NCBI GenBank assembly: GCA_028706315.1
Contig: JAQWBP010000009.1
Coordinates: forward strand, 11,694-75,693
DNA: 64,000 nt
Reading direction: 5' to 3'
From: Syntrophomonadaceae bacterium
Lineage (GTDB): Bacteria > Bacillota > Syntrophomonadia > Syntrophomonadales > Syntrophomonadaceae
Below, in pieces: positions 7,343 through 17,794 of the stretch (within the stretch, counting starts at the first letter, position 1; each line of letters begins with the position of its first letter). Both the position numbers and the translations under genes were made by a program. The notes below the pieces were generated by a model. That model was not told where the DNA came from and made no database searches. It was given only the letters and a program-made list of their open reading frames with translations.

Positions 7343-7762
7343 TCATTTCCAGGATAACAACCTTATAGGTGTATTCCCGGCCAATTTTTCGTTTAGTGAA
7401 ACTACCATTATTCTTTTCTTCACTTCAGTAATTTCGGTTCCATCAAGCTGATAGAATGTAAGCAGTTCATCTCCTTCATTATAATGGGAGATTAGTCTTG
7501 GCGATATACTAACCCGTTTACCGGAGTCTTTATTATATACACATACACAGTCTGTGTTCTTCTCATTCATGCCCAGAACTCTAAGGTCCTCATCGACAGA
7601 CTTATTATGGAAATAATTTACGTTACTGCCAAAATACAATAGAATCTCCTCTGTGTCCACCGGAACTCGCTGGTTGGTAAACTTATCTCTAAACCCCAGG
7701 CAATTAAAAGATAAACCTGTTTGACCTGTTAATTGAGACTTTTGCATAATGGCAAAAATCAC
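7343..7762 (-). pseudogene. gene remnant fused to the insertion-sequence end; function unknown
   Basis: An open frame of 139 codons, but its first ten or so codons (7733-7762) lie inside the inserted element and its terminal repeat. Only 7343-7732 is host sequence (LTGQTGLSFNCLGFRDKF onward). Joining the host sequence across the insertion gives a stop codon almost at once (TAA in the 9265-9290 stretch), with no ATG/GTG/TTG visible just upstream. The original start is therefore lost or was elsewhere. I do not recognise the product. It has no membrane helix and has two cysteines in VCVYNKD-like context. A terminator follows. Confidence 0.55.
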
Positions 7763-9260
7763 GTTCTTTGAAACTCAAATATGGTATTAGTGCATAAAAA
7801 CCAGTTAAATTTTGGTTAATTATGCCTTTAGCATCAACAAGGTTACTGGATTTATCTAAAAATGAGCAGGCTAACCCCTTTCTTTTAAAAACCTTAATTT
7901 CTGCTTGCTTTAGGCAGCTATATCTGCAGAAGATTTGTCTTTGTTTATGGCGACAACTGATGCAATCATGGTAATAACACTCAGGTAGGCATGAGTTTTG
8001 ACCTTTTTAATGCCTCGCACATTGAGTCCAGTTTCAAGTCCCAGATGCTCCTTTAATCGCCCAAAACATCGCTCTACACCGGTTCTTTTGTTGTATAGCA
8101 GTTTCCAGTTTGAAGTTCCTCGATGAGGCACTGTGAACAATCTGGAATCTTGTCTGGCTCTGGTTTTAACAACCATTCCATAATTGCTGGCTGAGCACCA
8201 GGAGGAACCAAAAGGGCAGTCACATTTGCCCATAACATGAGGGCATCGGAATTTGTTAACCCCATTGCTACCGCCCCAATAAGTCATGCGGTATCCTGCT
8301 GAACATATGGGAGTTGCATCCCAATCCAGACCTTCTGGAGGTTCCTTTGCCCCCCGGTGGTTTAGTGGTATTATTGCCTGTGCTTTGTAGTTCTTGCGGA
8401 TTAGTTCATATATTGACTTTTGATCATAACCTGCATCCATGAGATAATACTGGGGTTTACTGTTCAAGTTACTATTGCATTCTTCAAGGATGCTTTCGGC
8501 CACTATACCATCGTGGATACTAGCTGGGGTTATGCTCAATGCTACTGGTAATTCAGATTTAACGTCAGTAGCTATATGCAACTTGTAGCCAAACCAGGTT
8601 ATCTGATTACCATTGGTATCTAGCTTACTGCCCCAGTTAGCGGATTGGCCATCGTCATTAATATTTTTACGTGGAACTGACTTCTCATTAGCATCTACTT
8701 TGGAAGCATCTATGGCAATGGAACTGGTATCAAGAAGCCCCATGGATTCTGCTGTTTTTACCTGTTTATTGAACAGTTCACTAAGTACTTCTGATTGACT
8801 TAACTGTTCATAGAAACGACTAAAGGTAGCAATACTAGGCAATTTGCCAAAAACATCAAAGCCGCAGTTGTATCTGAGCACTGGGTCATGGGTAAGACGC
8901 TCCACTAACTCAGTAAATGTAGCCATATTGTAAACTCGCATCGCAATTAATGCTTTAAGTTTGTGCTCAACCAAGTAACCAGTCGGCCCTCGATGTTGTT
9001 CATTATTCTTAGAAAGAACAGTGATAACGTCATCAAAATCGAGGGTGGCTAGAATTATCTCTAAACGTGACCGGGGCTGCAAATTTATTGCATCCTCAAA
9101 GGAAAAAACATAGCCTTGTCGAATATTCATAAGTGACTTCGCCTCCTTCGGATTGTTTGTTTAGTCACTTATTAATTCGACAAAATGGGGGGTGAAGTCC
9201 TTTTTCTGTACTACTAAATCCCCATTATTTTCGGTCTTAGAGAATATGCAAAAGTCTCAT
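7733..9260 (-). mobile_element. insertion sequence with DDE transposase, 1528 bases
   Basis: The ends are inverted repeats: TTGAGACTTTTGCATA at 7733-7748 and ATGAGACTTTTGCATA on the other strand from 9260 inward (one mismatch, at the outermost base). Direct TTAA copies flank it (7729-7732 and 9261-9264), fitting a 4-base target duplication. A single intact transposase gene lies inside. The size, duplication and transposase type suggest the IS5/IS1182 area of insertion sequences; exact family uncertain. Confidence 0.87.
7910..9130 (-). CDS. DDE transposase (DUF772 N-terminal domain plus DDE_Tnp_1)
   Basis: 406 residues. The N-terminal third (KLKALIAMRVYNMATFTELV, FGKLPSIATFSRFYEQL) is the DUF772/InsH-type DNA-binding region. 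The catalytic region shows the first acid in SSIAIDASKVDANE, the second in YYLMDAGYDQKSIYEL, and the third in KRTGVERCFGRLKEHLGLE. Between the second and third acids lies a cysteine-rich insert (CPHVMGKCDCPFG). The gene appears complete and in frame, with GGAGGCGAAG before the ATG, so the element may be active. It uses the reverse strand, like the neighbouring toxin genes. Confidence 0.93.
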   Translation of the reverse strand: MNIRQGYVFSFEDAINLQPRSRLEIILATLDFDDVITVLSKNNEQHRGPTGYLVEHKLKALIAMRVYNMATFTELVERLTHDPVLRYNCGFDVFGKLPSIATFSRFYEQLSQSEVLSELFNKQVKTAESMGLLDTSSIAIDASKVDANEKSVPRKNINDDGQSANWGSKLDTNGNQITWFGYKLHIATDVKSELPVALSITPASIHDGIVAESILEECNSNLNSKPQYYLMDAGYDQKSIYELIRKNYKAQAIIPLNHRGAKEPPEGLDWDATPICSAGYRMTYWGGSNGVNKFRCPHVMGKCDCPFGSSWCSASNYGMVVKTRARQDSRLFTVPHRGTSNWKLLYNKRTGVERCFGRLKEHLGLETGLNVRGIKKVKTHAYLSVITMIASVVAINKDKSSADIAA

Positions 9261-9312
9261 TTAAGTATCGATTTTATTTGCAGATTATTTATCTTAAGAA
9301 TAATTTGCTGTT

Positions 9313-9585
9313 TTACACCCTATTAGTTTGCGGATTAACAACCTGGAAAGTACCCCCTATATTACCATAAGGGAAGTTAAAAGTTGTACGGAAGTAACCG
9401 TCCCCGTCAGCCTTGGTCTGCGAATAAAGAACAGATTTATCTCCTGAGTCTACCTGGACTAATACATCGGAATATGGCAGCCTAAAATCACTGTCTTCAG
9501 CTTGCCCGTATAACATGAACACGGACCCGGGACTGTACGCTTGTCGGGCACCGTTTAGAGTAAACAACGCCTCGCATAATGGCAA
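9313..9585 (-). CDS. unknown 90-residue protein, possible fragment of a surface protein
   Basis: MPLCEALFTLNGARQAYSPG at the start, then FMLYGQAEDSDF and TKADGDGYFRTTFNFP. The second half looks like a beta-sandwich segment of the carboxypeptidase-regulatory or macroglobulin-like sort (a D-G-x-Y-F-R-x-T pattern). There is no signal peptide and no clear ribosome site, so it may be a piece of a longer extracellular protein. It lies between the insertion sequence and the duplicated gene end, where fragments are expected. The function is unknown. Confidence 0.4.
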   Translation of the reverse strand: MPLCEALFTLNGARQAYSPGSVFMLYGQAEDSDFRLPYSDVLVQVDSGDKSVLYSQTKADGDGYFRTTFNFPYGNIGGTFQVVNPQTNRV

Positions 9586-9690: not shown

Positions 9691-9799
9691 TATTGCCATA
9701 TTTAACCATTTAGTATATACTATTCTATACAAATGAGTAGGTTTGCATACGAGATTAGGGAATTACTATAATATATATAAAATAGGGAAGGTGGCCATT

Positions 9800-10195
9800 T
9801 TGACTAAGGATGAAATTATAGTGTACTGGGTCACTTCTGCAGATCAAGACTATCAAACCATGATACATTTATATGAGAGCAAGGACTATCACTGGAGTCT
9901 ATTTATGGGTCATTTGGTTTTAGAAAAATTATTGAAAGCGGTTTATGTGGCGCGAGTTGATACAGAGATTCCCAGAATTCATGATCTGCTAAGAATATCG
10001 GAAAAAGCTGCTTTGAACCTTAATGATAAACAAAAGGATCAACTGGACCTGGTAAGCAGTTTCAACATTGCAGCTAGATATCCTGATTACAAGCATAGTA
10101 TCTATCAAAAGTGTACTCCGTCGTTTACGAAAGAAAACTTGATGACTATTAAGGAGTTGAGGACGTGGCTTCTAGGAGTATTAGAGAAGAAATAA
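9800..10195 (+). CDS. HEPN domain protein (toxin half of a HEPN/MNT pair)
   Basis: 131 residues from the TTG at 9800, chosen because GGGAAGGTGG lies just upstream; a frame extension to 9743 has no ribosome site. The helical HEPN fold is indicated by YWVTSADQDYQTMIHLYESK and LVLEKLLKAVYVAR. The RYPDYKH motif (an R-x5-H pattern) is the expected active site of HEPN RNases. It overlaps the following nucleotidyltransferase gene by 31 bases. Family knowledge: HEPN/MNT pairs often act as type VII toxin-antitoxin modules in which the MNT partner AMPylates the HEPN toxin. Whether this pair does so is inference. Confidence 0.85.
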   Translation: MTKDEIIVYWVTSADQDYQTMIHLYESKDYHWSLFMGHLVLEKLLKAVYVARVDTEIPRIHDLLRISEKAALNLNDKQKDQLDLVSSFNIAARYPDYKHSIYQKCTPSFTKENLMTIKELRTWLLGVLEKK

Positions 10196-10470
10196 CTGCT
10201 ATTGCAGAAAAATATGCGGACCTTGTCAAGGAAGAAATGAATGTGGAGGCGGTTTATTTATTTGGTTCTTTTGTTAATGGAAACCATGATCAGGATAGCG
10301 ATATAGATATTGCGGTAATTGCAGACGATTTTTCCGGTGATATTATTGAAGATACGTTAAAGTTAATGAGGATACGAAGAAAAGTTGATACCCGAATAGA
10401 ACCTCACCCTTTGAGAAAAGATAACCCTTTTGTTAGGGAAGTAATAACGACCGGTCGTCGTATCGGATAA
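10165..10470 (+). CDS. MNT-type minimal nucleotidyltransferase (antitoxin partner)
   Basis: 101 residues from a GTG, with AAGGAG 8 bases upstream, inside the end of the HEPN gene. The polymerase-beta-type motif GSFVNGNHDQDSDIDIAVI carries the G-S-x(10)-D-x-D pattern, and a third acid follows in KVDTRIEPHP. The size and position fit MNT proteins paired with HEPN partners. It probably modifies or neutralises the HEPN protein. A terminator follows 57 bases later. Confidence 0.87.
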   Translation: MASRSIREEITAIAEKYADLVKEEMNVEAVYLFGSFVNGNHDQDSDIDIAVIADDFSGDIIEDTLKLMRIRRKVDTRIEPHPLRKDNPFVREVITTGRRIG

Positions 10471-11809: not shown

Positions 11810-12739
11810 ATGAGCAGGCTTATCTCTATTGTTATTCCGTTATTCAATGAAGGGTTACATATCGAAGAAAGTTTAAACAAGATTGAAACGGAAGTTTTAA
11901 AAACTGGATTAAATTATGAATTAATCGTTATAGATGATGGTTCGAGTGATGATACCTGGGAAATTATCACTAACCGTAAAAAGAATTACCCACAGCTAAA
12001 AGCCGTCAGATTTAGCCGGCATTTTGGCAAAGAATCCGCTTTATGTGCTGGGCTTGATGAGGCAGCTGGTGATGCAGTCATAGTTATTGACGGTGATCTC
12101 CAGCACCCGCCGGAATTAATACCTCAAATGCTATTTTTATGGGAACATGAGGGTTATGAAATTGTTGAATGTGTAAAATCTGTCCGGGGGCAGGAGCCAT
12201 CTGTGAAGAAGTTGGGAGCATCTACTTTTTATACCTTGCTTAACAAGTTGTCTGGATATAATCTGAATGGTGCGTCTGATTACAAACTTTTGGATAGAAA
12301 AGTCGTCTCTGCCTGGCAACAGATGGGAGAAAGTAATGTTTTTTTCCGGGGCATGACTGCCTGGCTGGGCTTTAAAACTACTCGCCTAGATTTTACCGTG
12401 GGAGAAAGAGCCGCTGGTAATTCTCAGTGGTCGTTACTGCACCTGTGGAGGTTGGCGATAACTGCCCTCGTTTCTTTTTCCTCTTTGCCTTTACGTATTG
12501 TAACTATTCTGGGGGCAGTTTTCCTGCTGGTATCGATTATCCTGGGTATGCAAACTTTTTATATGAAATTTACCGGCGCAGCGATTACTGGTTTCACCAC
12601 CGTGATATTGCTGCTTTTAATAATTGGCAGCATAGTTATGCTAAGCCTGGGGATTATCGGTGAGTATATTGCGGCTATTTATCTAGAAGTTAAGCGGCGT
12701 CCCCGCTATATTGTGACAGAAAGAACGGATGTAAGGTGA
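11810..12739 (+). CDS. polyprenyl-phosphate glycosyltransferase, GT2 (GtrB/DPM1-like)
   Basis: 309 residues. The N-terminal GT2 domain has ISIVIPLFNEG, VIDDGSSDDTW and the metal-binding VIVIDGDLQHPPEL. Two membrane helices close the protein (about residues 230-255 and 264-290). This is the layout of enzymes that put a sugar on a polyprenyl phosphate carrier. It is the first gene of a four-gene operon with a PTPS-domain membrane protein, an exosortase-like protein and a second GT2. The stop codon sits against the ribosome site of the next gene. It likely supplies a lipid-linked sugar for a surface modification step (inference). Confidence 0.9.
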   Translation: MSRLISIVIPLFNEGLHIEESLNKIETEVLKTGLNYELIVIDDGSSDDTWEIITNRKKNYPQLKAVRFSRHFGKESALCAGLDEAAGDAVIVIDGDLQHPPELIPQMLFLWEHEGYEIVECVKSVRGQEPSVKKLGASTFYTLLNKLSGYNLNGASDYKLLDRKVVSAWQQMGESNVFFRGMTAWLGFKTTRLDFTVGERAAGNSQWSLLHLWRLAITALVSFSSLPLRIVTILGAVFLLVSIILGMQTFYMKFTGAAITGFTTVILLLLIIGSIVMLSLGIIGEYIAAIYLEVKRRPRYIVTERTDVR

Positions 12740-12745
12740 TTGCTA

Positions 12746-15394
12746 TTGGCTGAGAATAAATTTAATATGCTTTATGCCATGTCTTTTTTTCTTTCTGCCA
12801 GCCACTGGGTGGTTTACCAGGGTAAAAAAGGCGAGGTACACCAGCATATCTGGGAACTGGAACTATTAATTAAAAACCAAAATACGGATAACCGGCGCCT
12901 CGAATTGGGTTTTGCTGATATTGATAATTTAATTAGTCCTTATCTTGATACTTATGAAGGTGTATGTCTTAATGATTTTCCTCCCTTTGATAAAATAATG
13001 CCGACTACTGAAAATATGGGACAAGTTTTTTATCAGGGGCTTAATGTAGTTCTTAAACCTTATGGGTTGTTTATTGCGGAACTAAGACTAAAGGAAACAC
13101 CTACCAGGGGTATAATTATCCGGGATTATGAATCTGAGCAGGTTAAGCGCGAAATGCCGCTGTTTATGACGAGCTGCACCGAGCAGGAAGCAGCAGCTGT
13201 GCTCGAAGAACCAGCAGCTAGTGAAACGGTAGTGGCTGCAGGGGAGGTTTTAGAAGAAAGCTATGGTTATGGCAATATCGATAAGAGCGAAAAGGATAAT
13301 GAGCCACAGAGTTGGCTGGTCAGGATGCAGGATGCTATAGAAAAGCATAGTTCTCTTTTTACTTTTATAGCTATTGCAACTGTTTTAGCTGCTAATGCTT
13401 TTGTATATCATGATCTGCTGGTTGATTATCCGGCCCGAGCCTATCCCTGGGGTTCAGATGCCTGGGGCCATCTTTATAAGGCGGAATTTCTCCTGGAGCA
13501 AATTAAACAGGGTAATTTCTGGCCCAGTTATTTTCCCTGGTGGTATAACGGTATTCAGCTGTTCAGGTACTGGGCACCGCTTCCTTACTATGTTCTGGCT
13601 GGGATGGGGCTAATATGTAAGGACATTTTTCTGGCCCATATCTGGTATATTATTGGCTGTTCGCTGTTAGGTAGTATTTCCTGGCTAGCTATGCGAAAAT
13701 ATACGGGTTATCTACCGGTTTTAATTATTGCACTGTTATGGGTCATAGTTCCTGACAATATAAGTGTTACTTTTTCGGAGGGTAACTTGCCCCGGACGCT
13801 TATCATGGCGATTACACCCATAATAGTATACTTGGCACTGGAGATTTATCATGGCAAAGCTGATGCTAAGAAACAGTTTGGTTTTGTTTTACTGCTGGCG
13901 GCTTCGGTACTGACTCATGCTATGATGGGGGCCATTCTAACCGGTAGTATTTGTTTATGGTATATGATTACTGCCTGGTTTGACCGTAAGCCCTGGACGT
14001 TTGTAGTGCGGTTTTTAATATTGAGCGCTTGTGGGATATTAGTAACTTCCTGGTGGTTGTTCCCGGCACTTACGGGAGGAATTACCAGCATTGATAGTGG
14101 GGGTATAAATGAAGCTATTCGCTTTTTCCCCCTTAGTAAGTCATTAAATCCGTTACTTCGCATGAAAGATCCGGAAGTATTTTATCTGGGGTTGTCTTAT
14201 GCAGGACTGCTGGTATTCGGTCTTTTAACCTGGAAATCACGTCGGTCATATCAGAAATCGGCTTTACTTATTGCGGCGCTATTTTTCCTGGCTACTACTA
14301 CGGTTACCAGTTCACTTTATCTTAAACTCCCCCTGCATAACTTGTTATGGCCACAGCGGTTAACTACTGCAGGTATTGCTTTGTTATTGCTGGGAACAGT
14401 TAATTTTGATTTTAATGTAAACCGACCTGCGCTAAAGAAATTAGCCGGAGTTATATTTATTTTGCTGGTACCGGCTCTTTTTATCGATAGTTATTTGTCA
14501 CATAATCTTATTCATCTAAGGGAATACCCCCAGCACGTGGCCAGGGGGATAGAAACAGCAGCTACCCATGAAGGTTTTAAAGTAGCAGCAGTTGATTTGA
14601 GCGAGTTTGGCTCTATGGTTTCCTATTTGTTTAGCAGTGAATTTGAGCGGGAGCAGGTATTCGGGTGGGCCTGGCAGGGAGCACAAACTTCCTCTAATAT
14701 AGCGCTGGCAAATACAGCGATTAAGAGTTCCTGGTATAACTATGCTCTGGATAGGTTGGAAGAACTTGGCGCTACTCAGCTCCTGGTAAAACGGGATACG
14801 ATAAATAATTATAGCTCATTTACTGAGGCTGCACGGGATAAGGGCTACCAACAGGTCTTTATAAATGATATTGCAGCAGTATATAGTGTTAATCGCGGGC
14901 CGTATGCCTGTACGGCAGATTATAAGATTCTGGGTATTGGCCCGGGGGCTAATTTCCTTTCCGTTATATATCCGCAGATCCAGGTGGGGCAGAGTACTAT
15001 TATCGAGGATTACCCTCTGCAGAAGCTTAAGGAGTATGATGCATTAGTATTATCTGGTTTTGACTGGCGTACTAAAGATAGGGCGGAACAGAGAATTGTT
15101 GCTTACCTGCACGGCGGAGGTCGGGTCATTGTTGACCTAAACGGGGTAAAGTGTGATATGTTTTCCAGCCGTCCCTCTTTTCTGGGAGTAGAAGGGGAAC
15201 CTTTAGCGCTAACTACTCCAGTTCCGATTTATCATGATAAACCAGTTAATCTGCAGTCTTTTGATGAAGCTAATCTTCCCTGGATGGCTTTAACCCTGCA
15301 AGGGTTAGACGTGGTAAAAACTCGCATAAATTACCGGGGACAAATAGCTGCCATAGGTGGGTATAAACAAATGGGAGCAGGTAGTTGCCTATAA
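12746..15394 (+). CDS. PTPS-like domain fused to a large multi-pass membrane protein (PTPS_related); frameshifted near the end
   Basis: Start taken as TTG at 12746, 7 bases after AAGGTG. Residues 1-120 resemble 6-pyruvoyl-tetrahydropterin synthase: SASHWV, then HQHIWELEL, LGFADIDNLI, MPTTENMGQ and LRLKETP. The three zinc histidines (about H20, H32, H34) are present. No cysteine stands at the usual catalytic place, so pterin synthesis is doubtful. After a linker come about ten membrane helices (residues 210-560), then a soluble domain with an ALVLSGFDWR segment. This matches the PTPS-related membrane family seen beside XrtG exosortases. The frame stops at 15392-15394, but homologous-looking sequence continues one frame over to 15740. 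Removing one A near 15369-15371 joins the two into one protein of about 997 residues. Confidence 0.85.
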   Translation: MAENKFNMLYAMSFFLSASHWVVYQGKKGEVHQHIWELELLIKNQNTDNRRLELGFADIDNLISPYLDTYEGVCLNDFPPFDKIMPTTENMGQVFYQGLNVVLKPYGLFIAELRLKETPTRGIIIRDYESEQVKREMPLFMTSCTEQEAAAVLEEPAASETVVAAGEVLEESYGYGNIDKSEKDNEPQSWLVRMQDAIEKHSSLFTFIAIATVLAANAFVYHDLLVDYPARAYPWGSDAWGHLYKAEFLLEQIKQGNFWPSYFPWWYNGIQLFRYWAPLPYYVLAGMGLICKDIFLAHIWYIIGCSLLGSISWLAMRKYTGYLPVLIIALLWVIVPDNISVTFSEGNLPRTLIMAITPIIVYLALEIYHGKADAKKQFGFVLLLAASVLTHAMMGAILTGSICLWYMITAWFDRKPWTFVVRFLILSACGILVTSWWLFPALTGGITSIDSGGINEAIRFFPLSKSLNPLLRMKDPEVFYLGLSYAGLLVFGLLTWKSRRSYQKSALLIAALFFLATTTVTSSLYLKLPLHNLLWPQRLTTAGIALLLLGTVNFDFNVNRPALKKLAGVIFILLVPALFIDSYLSHNLIHLREYPQHVARGIETAATHEGFKVAAVDLSEFGSMVSYLFSSEFEREQVFGWAWQGAQTSSNIALANTAIKSSWYNYALDRLEELGATQLLVKRDTINNYSSFTEAARDKGYQQVFINDIAAVYSVNRGPYACTADYKILGIGPGANFLSVIYPQIQVGQSTIIEDYPLQKLKEYDALVLSGFDWRTKDRAEQRIVAYLHGGGRVIVDLNGVKCDMFSSRPSFLGVEGEPLALTTPVPIYHDKPVNLQSFDEANLPWMALTLQGLDVVKTRINYRGQIAAIGGYKQMGAGSCL

Positions 15395-15740
15395 TCCTTC
15401 TGGAAAAGTTACCGTGAGTCTTTTTGATGCTAACCATCGCCTGTTATGGATTGATTCAGGACGCTGGGGAGAAGGTGCACACTTCCCTTCGCGCTGCGAG
15501 TTTTATTTACCGTTTGAGCAGCTAGGAATTATTGCTGGTCAAAATATGCGTGTTTATGCAGAGGCGAGTCAAGCTAATTCTTTTCAGCATTGTGATCGGA
15601 TACCTGATGAGGGTGATATTCAGATTTCCCCTATACCAGCTCTGGGAAAAACGATGTTCTATATTTTATGGGCAGTTATTTTAACCGCCGGGATAGTTTT
15701 GATTAAAAAATCATGCTATAAGGATGTTCCCAGTGTATAG
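15357..15740 (+). CDS. C-terminal part of the PTPS-related membrane protein in a shifted frame
   Basis: The frame reads WEQVVAYNPSGKVTVSLFDA, ending with a membrane helix (MFYILWAVILTAGIVLI) and a short basic tail. It has no ribosome site and overlaps the preceding frame by 38 bases. Fused after ...GGYKQ of the upstream frame it gives a smooth sequence and a final membrane anchor. I treat it as the broken-off end of the 12746 gene. Its stop overlaps the start of the exosortase-like gene, as expected for a tight operon. Confidence 0.75.
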   Translation: MGINKWEQVVAYNPSGKVTVSLFDANHRLLWIDSGRWGEGAHFPSRCEFYLPFEQLGIIAGQNMRVYAEASQANSFQHCDRIPDEGDIQISPIPALGKTMFYILWAVILTAGIVLIKKSCYKDVPSV

Positions 15741-16347
15741 TGATGTTTCGTTAACACTAATTATTATTTTATCTCTAGTCTGGTTTCTGCCAGTTTTGTT
15801 TTTCCGCTATTACAAAATATGGATTCTATATTTTATTACCGGGGTAGGCGGTTTTACAGTTCTAGGGGCATTTATTCTTAATGAAAGCTGGTTTGAGAAT
15901 TTTTTATCTGCTACTGCGGTTGGTATATGTGCCCGGATGGCTGATTACTTAAGTCTTCAGGTGCAGGCTTTTGCTGATGCTGGAATTATGCTTATTTCTT
16001 CGCCGGCATTTTCGGGTTTTACTTCTATGTCTATTGATATTGAATGTTCAGGTATGCTGGAAATGCTCGTTGTATGGGCGTTAATTATATTTTTCCCTAT
16101 ATTCGATCGGGGAGAAAGAGTGTGGTACCTATTCTGGGGTTCTATAATGGTTTATCTGGTTAACCTGGTACGTATTTTAGTTATTCTACTAGCATTAAGC
16201 TATTGGGGCAGAGATAGTATTTTTATTGTTCATACCGTGATAGCGCGGGGGATATTCTTTATCCTGATAGTAATGATTTTCTGGGAAATCTTTACCCGTA
16301 AATCTATAGAGTGTATTCGTAAACTTCATAGCGGGGGAGATGAATAG
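15724..16347 (+). CDS. xrtG: exosortase-family membrane protein, XrtG-like
   Basis: 207 residues with about six membrane helices. The exosortase/archaeosortase catalytic set is visible: Cys108 in IECSGMLEMLVVW, Arg150 in VNLVRI and His170 in HTVIAR. The neighbourhood (GT2, PTPS-related membrane protein, a second GT2) is the one I know for the Gram-positive XrtG group. Family knowledge: exosortases cleave and transfer C-terminal sorting signals. For XrtG the substrates are poorly known; a Firmicutes-specific C-terminal tripartite signal has been proposed. No such target is obvious in this window. It overlaps its neighbours by 17 and 8 bases, so it is translated as part of the operon. Confidence 0.88.
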   Translation: MFPVYSDVSLTLIIILSLVWFLPVLFFRYYKIWILYFITGVGGFTVLGAFILNESWFENFLSATAVGICARMADYLSLQVQAFADAGIMLISSPAFSGFTSMSIDIECSGMLEMLVVWALIIFFPIFDRGERVWYLFWGSIMVYLVNLVRILVILLALSYWGRDSIFIVHTVIARGIFFILIVMIFWEIFTRKSIECIRKLHSGGDE

Positions 16348-17686
16348 TTTGACATCAGAAGTAGTTATAAAGTTCCTGGTTTTTTGGGGAATATGGATAT
16401 TAATCCCCATGATGGTAGATGGTCTCTCCGCTCTGGTACATACTAGTTATGCTATTTTTAAACGGGTAAGAATACGGCGCAATTGTGAAGATGATGATTT
16501 TAGCTTAAACTATTATCCTTTAGTAAGTGTGCTAGTCCCGGTGCATAATTCTGCCTCGACACTATATGAATGCCTGGAATCTATTGCCGCGCAAACCTAC
16601 CCCTGGCAGCGGTTAGAAGTGCTGCTGATTGATAATGGGACTACGGATAATAGTTTTGACGTTTTCAACCAGTTTACTGGAAGATATCCCCGGTTAAGAT
16701 GCCGCTGGGTAAGTTTTAAACAGAGTGGTAAATCAAGGGCGCTTAATGCGGGCATTTGTATGGGTAAGGGGCAGTACCTAGTTACGGTAGATTCGGATTC
16801 TTATCTGGTCCCGGAAGCCATCACGGAAACAATCAAGGCTTTTTCCAGGGATGTTCAGTTGGTCGGTACTACAGGAGTTATTTTAATTAACCATGACAAA
16901 ATAGAAAAAAGTAGAAGTGCACTCCGATTAATGCAGATCTGTGAAGCTTTTGAATATATTGAGGCCTTTTATATTGCCCGGAGTTTCCAAAGCCGGTTTA
17001 ATACCTTATTTACTATGGCTGGGGCTTTTTCTGGTTTCAGAAGGCTGGCATTATTAAAAACATTTCTCTATGATAATCGTACTGTATCAGAAGATACTAA
17101 ACTAACTTTTGACCTGCGGATGCAGAATCCGGGAAAAAATCGCCTGATTATGGTAGAAAAATCAGTTGCCCTGGTAGCGCCAATTAATTCCTTGCAACAT
17201 CTTTATTCCCAAAGACTGCGCTGGCAGAGAGGACAGTTAGAAGTTGCAGCTTATTTTAAAGAGCAGAATTCAGTGAGTATATTTAGATTGCTTTCTTCTT
17301 TTCCGTCGCGGACTTTATTTGCCGACCACACTCTGGCATTTCCCCGTATGGCATGGTTTTTCCTTATTCCCTTGCTTTTTTTCATGGGATATCCACTAAC
17401 GCTCGTACTGGGAGCCAATCTGATTATTTACCTACTTTATGTAATTATTGATTTAATTTATATTTTGATAGCCCTGGCTTATTTAAAACTTGATTATCGG
17501 CAGTTTGTTCGTAAAAACTTCTGGATTGTTATAGTGCTGCCACTATATCGCTTTATAGTATACTGGTGCCGTCTGGCCGGTATTATTACTGCTGTAACTG
17601 TGCATGGCGAGTGGGATAGTTCCGGCCCCATTACTCAAACCCGGCAGGCCTTCAATGACCTAGTGACTCGGATGGGATTCAAGTAG
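16340..17686 (+). CDS. XrtG-associated glycosyltransferase, GT2 with membrane helices
   Basis: 448 residues. An N-terminal helix (about residues 9-36) is followed by a GT2 domain with VSVLVPVHNSASTLYECLE, LLIDNGTTDNSF and TVDSDSYLVPEA (the D-x-D metal site). The processive-type motif QRLRWQRGQ (the Q-x-x-R-W pattern of synthases) is present, and several C-terminal helices complete it. It resembles cellulose/hyaluronan-synthase-like enzymes that build and export a polymer. It begins 8 bases inside the end of the exosortase gene. With the first GT2 of the operon it suggests that the exosortase step is tied to making or attaching a surface glycan (inference). Confidence 0.9.
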   Translation: MNSLTSEVVIKFLVFWGIWILIPMMVDGLSALVHTSYAIFKRVRIRRNCEDDDFSLNYYPLVSVLVPVHNSASTLYECLESIAAQTYPWQRLEVLLIDNGTTDNSFDVFNQFTGRYPRLRCRWVSFKQSGKSRALNAGICMGKGQYLVTVDSDSYLVPEAITETIKAFSRDVQLVGTTGVILINHDKIEKSRSALRLMQICEAFEYIEAFYIARSFQSRFNTLFTMAGAFSGFRRLALLKTFLYDNRTVSEDTKLTFDLRMQNPGKNRLIMVEKSVALVAPINSLQHLYSQRLRWQRGQLEVAAYFKEQNSVSIFRLLSSFPSRTLFADHTLAFPRMAWFFLIPLLFFMGYPLTLVLGANLIIYLLYVIIDLIYILIALAYLKLDYRQFVRKNFWIVIVLPLYRFIVYWCRLAGIITAVTVHGEWDSSGPITQTRQAFNDLVTRMGFK

Positions 17687-17689
17687 GAA

Positions 17690-17794
17690 TTCAAGTGGGG
17701 ACGGGGGGGGACAGGGGGACAGGTTTGCTGTCCCATGCTTGGAAACACATGGGACAGCAAACCTGTCCCCCTGTCCCGAACCGTCCCCGCTTGG
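17690..17794. repeat. long palindrome of the CAAGTGGGGACGG family, copy 1
   Basis: The outer arms CAAGTGGGGACGG (from 17692) and CCGTCCCCGCTTG (to 17793) belong to a family found at 36656, 41927 and 46684. The inner 30-base arms (17708-17737 and 17748-17777) are perfectly complementary around a 10-base loop and differ from the inner arms of the other copies. It lies directly after the XrtG operon and can act as its transcription end. Confidence 0.9.

Follow-up and report, generated by a model that had tools for sequence, protein, structure and literature searches.

The closest known system to the locus described here is XrtG/Firmicu-CTERM (TIGR03110, TIGR03111, TIGR03112, TIGR03766, and TIGR04145) of Lactococcus lactis pBV60 and Lachnospira eligens. 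Public models already cover XrtG, its associated glycosyltransferases (GTs), its association with PTPS, and Firmicu-CTERM, and the system is named in a paper that only lists its genes (PMC12854382). Our locus shares with it a TIGR03111 GT2 gene placed directly after xrtG, a clustered gene for a PTPS-domain protein, and one target that lies directly upstream of xrtG and carries a C-terminal tripartite signal; the DGxFxDW start of the target is shared with Lactococcus. The clade studied here differs in having the motif GDIxxSPxP instead of G-T/S-x-T/S-G/A-P, a target fused behind a PTPS/GT-C protein, an extra GtrB-like GT2, and no TIGR03766 GT. In our sequence, the target is also truncated and out of frame.

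Three other systems offer partial parallels. ArtA/PGF-CTERM also combines a membrane Cys-Arg enzyme with a motif-helix-basic tail signal, and a lipid replaces the tail (PMC9263693), but it has many targets, another motif, a lipid acceptor, and no TIGR03111 GT2. PgfS/PgfM and GtrB-type systems place a polyprenyl-phosphate-sugar GT2 beside a GT-C-type membrane protein, to which our locus adds an exosortase and a PTPS domain. GlyGly-CTERM/rhombosortase likewise has one enzyme and one adjacent target, although its protease family is unrelated; the concept of such a dedicated system, with one sorting enzyme for one adjacent target, comes from the same work (PMC3237569). A one-enzyme, one-target system bears on the substrates and products of Firmicutes exosortases.

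The window is the whole stretch of 64,000 nt that was analyzed, from Syntrophomonadaceae bacterium (GCA_028706315.1, contig JAQWBP010000009.1, 11,694 to 75,693, forward strand). The locus contains the following features:

11810..12739, + strand: GtrB/PgfS-type GT2 (polyprenyl-phosphate sugar synthase) with C-terminal TM helices (PF00535, 99 bits)
12740..15394, + strand: membrane protein of 884 aa with a PTPS-like domain and a PTPS_related (GT-C type) part (TIGR03112, PF10131)
15357..15740, + strand: C-terminal half of the target protein, 127 aa (alignments to relatives; tblastn E 2.6e-15)
15368..15389, + strand: inferred deletion junction, where 22 nt stand in place of about 272-275 codons present in relatives and the frame changes (tblastn)
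15724..16347, + strand: XrtG exosortase, 207 aa, with C108/R150/H170 intact (TIGR03110, alignment, phylogeny)
16340..17686, + strand: XrtG-associated membrane GT2 with the processive-synthase motifs DSD, ED, and QRxRW (TIGR03111)

The genes abut or overlap (the TIGR03111 GT2 gene overlaps xrtG by 8 nt) and so look like one operon. The first-pass annotation had placed the two GT2 genes, the PTPS membrane protein, and XrtG at these coordinates, had assigned XrtG to its family with Cys108/Arg150/His170, and had remarked on its sugar and lipid-carrier neighborhood; we agree on all three points. XrtG scores 109.2 bits against TIGR03110 (curated cut-off 102.75), and its three residues are conserved in an alignment with homologues. 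The TIGR03111 GT2 reaches 442.5 bits (cut-off 363.95), and its D151/D153, D252, Q291, R292, R294, and W295 are invariant among 8 homologues. The first GT2 aligns over its full length with the solved GtrB sll0501 (5ekp; phmmer E 2e-63) and scores 254 bits against NF047588 PgfS, under the cut-off of 500. Together the GT2s of the locus match solved GtrB and processive synthases. The proteins neighboring the locus do not match the second XrtG-associated GT (TIGR03766), of which Lactococcus has one.

The PTPS protein exceeds the cut-offs of both TIGR03112 (80.7 bits; cut-off 69.35) and PF10131 (390.7 bits; cut-off 26.4), the latter a family that we take to be a member of the GT-C clan in Pfam. The invariant residues of the PTPS-like domain include three histidines (H22, H34, H36) and the glutamate of ExPT, presumably the zinc and pterin ligands of PTPS/QueD. 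The position of the QueD catalytic Cys appears to be occupied by another residue, which we treat as a lead only. No PDB match was obtained for the membrane part of the PTPS protein or for the XrtG profile, and AlphaFold models from single sequences had a pLDDT of 38 for the window PTPS protein and 42 for one relative's target (L029).

Several other features flank the locus. Directly 3′ of its last gene is an inverted repeat (17692-17793; 2 x 46 nt, 91% complementary, 10-nt loop) that may be REP-like or a terminator. Genes for HEPN (PF05168) and an MNT-type nucleotidyltransferase (PF18765) adjoin at 9743-10470 and resemble HEPN/MNT toxin-antitoxin pairs. A few kb upstream of the locus lies a gene called transposase-like from its sequence (7910-9130), with a possible link to rearrangement.

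The first-pass annotation described the locus as complete and stated that no target protein lies beside XrtG. Neither statement holds: the C-terminal half of a target is encoded by ORF 15357-15740, between the PTPS gene and xrtG, and it lacks the signal peptide and N-terminal half; the last ~145 residues are missing from the PTPS gene. For the window, the corrected reading is a target that is present but broken. The ORF encodes a beta-rich part, the motif DRIPDEGDIQISPIP, one TM helix (residues 98-116), and a KK tail. Its homology to the target C-terminal half was found by tblastn with the full-length protein of a relative (36% over 139 aa, at the E-value listed above) and was also detected in the search of its own genome (E 7.4e-7 and 1.2e-4).

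At the equivalent position, relatives encode a secreted protein of ~220 aa (L015, L016, L018, L019, L023, and L029, with the L016 and L018 proteins ending at a contig edge). It has a signal peptide, the DGxFxDW start, and a beta-rich domain, followed by DRxPDxGDIQWSPIP, a single TM helix, and a basic tail; our ORF aligns with its C-terminal half, covering the whole tripartite signal. In general form, the class begins with (I/V)xxDGxFxDW and ends with GDI-x-x-(S/T)-P-(I/V)-P followed by a single TM helix and a basic tail. The equivalent position is occupied by an annotated Firmicu-CTERM protein in Lactococcus lactis pBV60 and Lachnospira eligens, and by a target-like ORF in most canonical-clade loci examined; L103 has none at that position.

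The comparison thus yields an unannotated class of XrtG target, with a GDIxxSPxP signal, that TIGR04145 misses. ORF 15357-15740 did not match TIGR04145 up to E 10, and the matches of this model across its genome and family were weak and partial, none above cut-off. Targets of the GDIxxSPxP clade contain no Pfam or NCBIfam domain, and a profile search of the target against PDB gave nothing significant. One further locus, L107 (1477-2756; genome G768), encodes an XrtG with ECTG and a target that ends DRSPDYGRITIAS-helix-KK, a signal intermediate between the canonical and GDIxxSPxP types.

We also searched 54 family genomes with a profile of the C-terminal signal (A1). Because family members and the window are among the sequences that went into the profile, its strong matches (E 1.1e-22 or better; in six genomes with XrtG, each time directly upstream of xrtG, window included) and its weaker ones (6e-8 to 0.018, within fused XrtG proteins) are positive by construction, and the informative part is the lack of second matches. 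Among XrtG-less genomes of this set, nothing was better than 0.003. The signal is convincing only beside xrtG across the 54 genomes, which argues that XrtG is a dedicated one-target enzyme. This profile search stood in for the genome search for tripartite-signal proteins that the first pass had proposed; in the window's genome it gives one candidate, beside xrtG, and no convincing second.

This bears on the idea that a target is missing from the XrtG locus and that the enzyme acts on proteins encoded elsewhere in the genome. TIGR04145 does find nothing in the window's genome at E<=1e-3 (best E 0.18, elsewhere than ORF 15357-15740), as that idea would predict. However, the target remnant adjoins xrtG and the genome holds no other convincing tripartite-signal protein of the GDIxxSPxP type, so we regard the idea as largely refuted and very improbable. 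The earlier argument from a missing target fails as well, given that relatives encode one target directly upstream of xrtG or fused to XrtG or the PTPS protein, and that the window retains half of it in this position.

In the window's closest XrtG relatives, the target is part of the PTPS gene. Single ORFs of 1,287-1,300 aa in L074, L076, and L077 encode PTPS, GT-C, and the whole target, in the order PTPS domain, GT-C part, extracytoplasmic part, TM helix, signal-peptide-like helix, target domain, and signal. The second signal-peptide-like helix (for example, ...LFLPPVVLAAEDIAVDGEFGDW) lies inside the ORF, and the product reads as a polyprotein with the target as its tail. The L076 protein matches the window up to residue 884 (15367) and resumes at residue 1157 (15390) in another frame (tblastn). 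About 800 bp of the fused gene are missing from the window, and the PTPS frame is lost after about codon 876. The lost segment encoded the end of PTPS/GT-C with its last helix and the signal peptide and first half of the target. This truncation and frame change were absent from the earlier reading.

The ~800-bp deletion could be a misassembly artefact. A misassembly in which the lost segment was placed elsewhere is rejected, since the segment is absent from the rest of the 2.5-Mb, 94-contig assembly. The PTPS-target gene is also shortened in L078 (G267), where it begins at residue 468, and in L079 (G073), where residue 28 is joined to residue 1138 with a frame change (a deletion of ~3.3 kb); decay of this gene therefore recurs in the clade. 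In L079, XrtG and a GT2 are also joined in frame, with an internal deletion (7486-9533), and XrtG-GT2 has further deletions. We read it as an independently decayed locus.

With ~800 bp lost and the frame changed, the window locus is probably decaying and probably not fully functional. The PTPS domain, GT-C part, XrtG, and GT2 show no other lesion, so the glycosyltransferase functions may persist. Taking these results together, we think it reasonably probable that the locus is a dedicated XrtG system tied to surface-glycan synthesis whose PTPS-target gene is broken and which is decaying. A coupling of the exosortase to glycan synthesis is a reasonable reading of the gene content, and one already implied by the names of the public models (XrtG-associated glycosyltransferases).

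In the XrtG phylogeny, the window protein clusters with those of L074 and L076-L079 (support 99/97). These belong to other families of the phylum, and the tree places XrtGs from the window's own family apart from them. This pattern suggests horizontal acquisition of the window XrtG, though its branch is long (1.89 for XrtG versus 0.71 for the GT2), a difference that fits relaxed constraint and is weak evidence for it. Sampling of relatives was extended by wider searches around genomes G175, G190, and G137, which yielded few extra genomes; a scan of genome contigs recovered one XrtG relative.

We also considered a functional locus, in which a frame shift, a polymorphism, or a one-base sequencing error underlies a shorter PTPS-target fusion that would remain a substrate of XrtG. 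The homologies in frame 2 and frame 3 lie within 22 nt of each other, preservation of the DRIPDEGDIQISPIP-helix-KK signal is good, and by hydropathy the topology would be right, with the target's C-terminal helix replacing the lost last PTPS helix. However, a +1 shift would be needed at a site where we recognised neither a slippery nor a stop context, the target has lost its N-terminal DGxFxDW half, and the branch lengths fit relaxed constraint. We consider this quite unlikely, and decay of the window locus the most likely reading.

The families, gene order, tripartite signal, single target, and break are shown by the sequence comparisons; for a dedicated system of this kind, we propose the following chemistry and product. 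The GtrB-like GT2 would make a polyprenyl-phosphate sugar, which the PTPS/GT-C protein would use on the outer face, and the TIGR03111 GT2 would make and extrude a polysaccharide. XrtG is predicted to cut the target through Cys108 at SPxP, just before the TM helix, and may join the new C-terminus of the target to an acceptor, either a glycan or a lipid. In the window's lineage, the target would be made as the tail of the PTPS/GT-C polyprotein, with an internal signal-peptide-like helix. As the window's target has lost its signal peptide and first half, XrtG would be without an intact substrate there, and a loss of function is predicted.

Elsewhere in the family of systems, the target is joined to the exosortase itself. 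In L017, L020-L022, L024-L027, L075, and L080, XrtG carries the target domain with its GDIQWxPFP motif as an N-terminal fusion (ORFs of 354-400 aa; L027 ends at a contig edge). The catalytic Cys is gone from all ten of these proteins, replaced by Ser (AGT) in L080 and by Asn (AAT) in the other nine. The Arg is retained, as is the His wherever the sequence extends to it, and the non-fused XrtGs examined keep the Cys. In archaeosortase A, Cys173 is needed for catalysis (PMC9263693). The fused XrtGs form one clade, with L080 outermost, and so represent a single fusion event, not ten independent cases; the Cys was perhaps lost by a stepwise codon path, TGY-AGT-AAT. Two near-identical fused Cys-less systems, L020 and L021, occur in one genome assembly (G023).

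These fusions are a natural experiment, in which a target genetically joined to its exosortase goes with loss of the catalytic Cys. The existence of a clade with fused targets and no Cys suggests that processing is replaceable by permanent tethering of the target, and stable tethering may be the biological end. It becomes testable whether exosortase chemistry is needed only for holding the target at a membrane site of glycan synthesis.

A related view is that XrtG systems are at heart TIGR03111 polysaccharide synthases, with the target as a fixed extracytoplasmic subunit that the exosortase mainly positions and with dispensable protease chemistry. The retention of Arg and GDIQWxPFP alongside the lost Cys is in line with this, as are a GT2 that is always adjacent where the contig extends and the one target per genome. 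Against it, the fused forms amount to one evolutionary event, the Cys kept in non-fused XrtGs argues that cleavage matters there, and the target domain has no Pfam match; we find this view unlikely. A broader version can be put forward tentatively, as possible though doubtful: the systems would be polysaccharide synthases with the single target as an obligate extracytoplasmic partner, fusion and Cys loss would have turned XrtG into a non-catalytic scaffold in one lineage, and in the window's clade the partner would have become the tail of a GT-C polyprotein. In a limited literature search we found no description of the SPxP-type signal or of either fusion, PTPS-target or Cys-less XrtG-target.

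Relatives also carry other genes beside these systems. A DivIVA-like gene is directly upstream of the PTPS gene in L017 (9439-9942; PF05103) and, by sequence likeness, in L019 (17804-18301), L022 (13877-14395), L025 (5164-5682), and L027 (4807-5322). This neighbor could mean that the system is located at poles or septa. There are EamA/SMR-like flippase candidates in L025 (11764-17291), L017 (16074), and L021 (5338); the L025 region is an extended glycan cluster that also encodes additional GT2s, a methyltransferase, and another PF10131 protein. Finally, L081 (6771-9829; G167) encodes a distant exosortase-like protein and, next to it, a protein of 723 aa that ends in a PEFP-helix-RKR tail; the two look like another dedicated exosortase-target pair.
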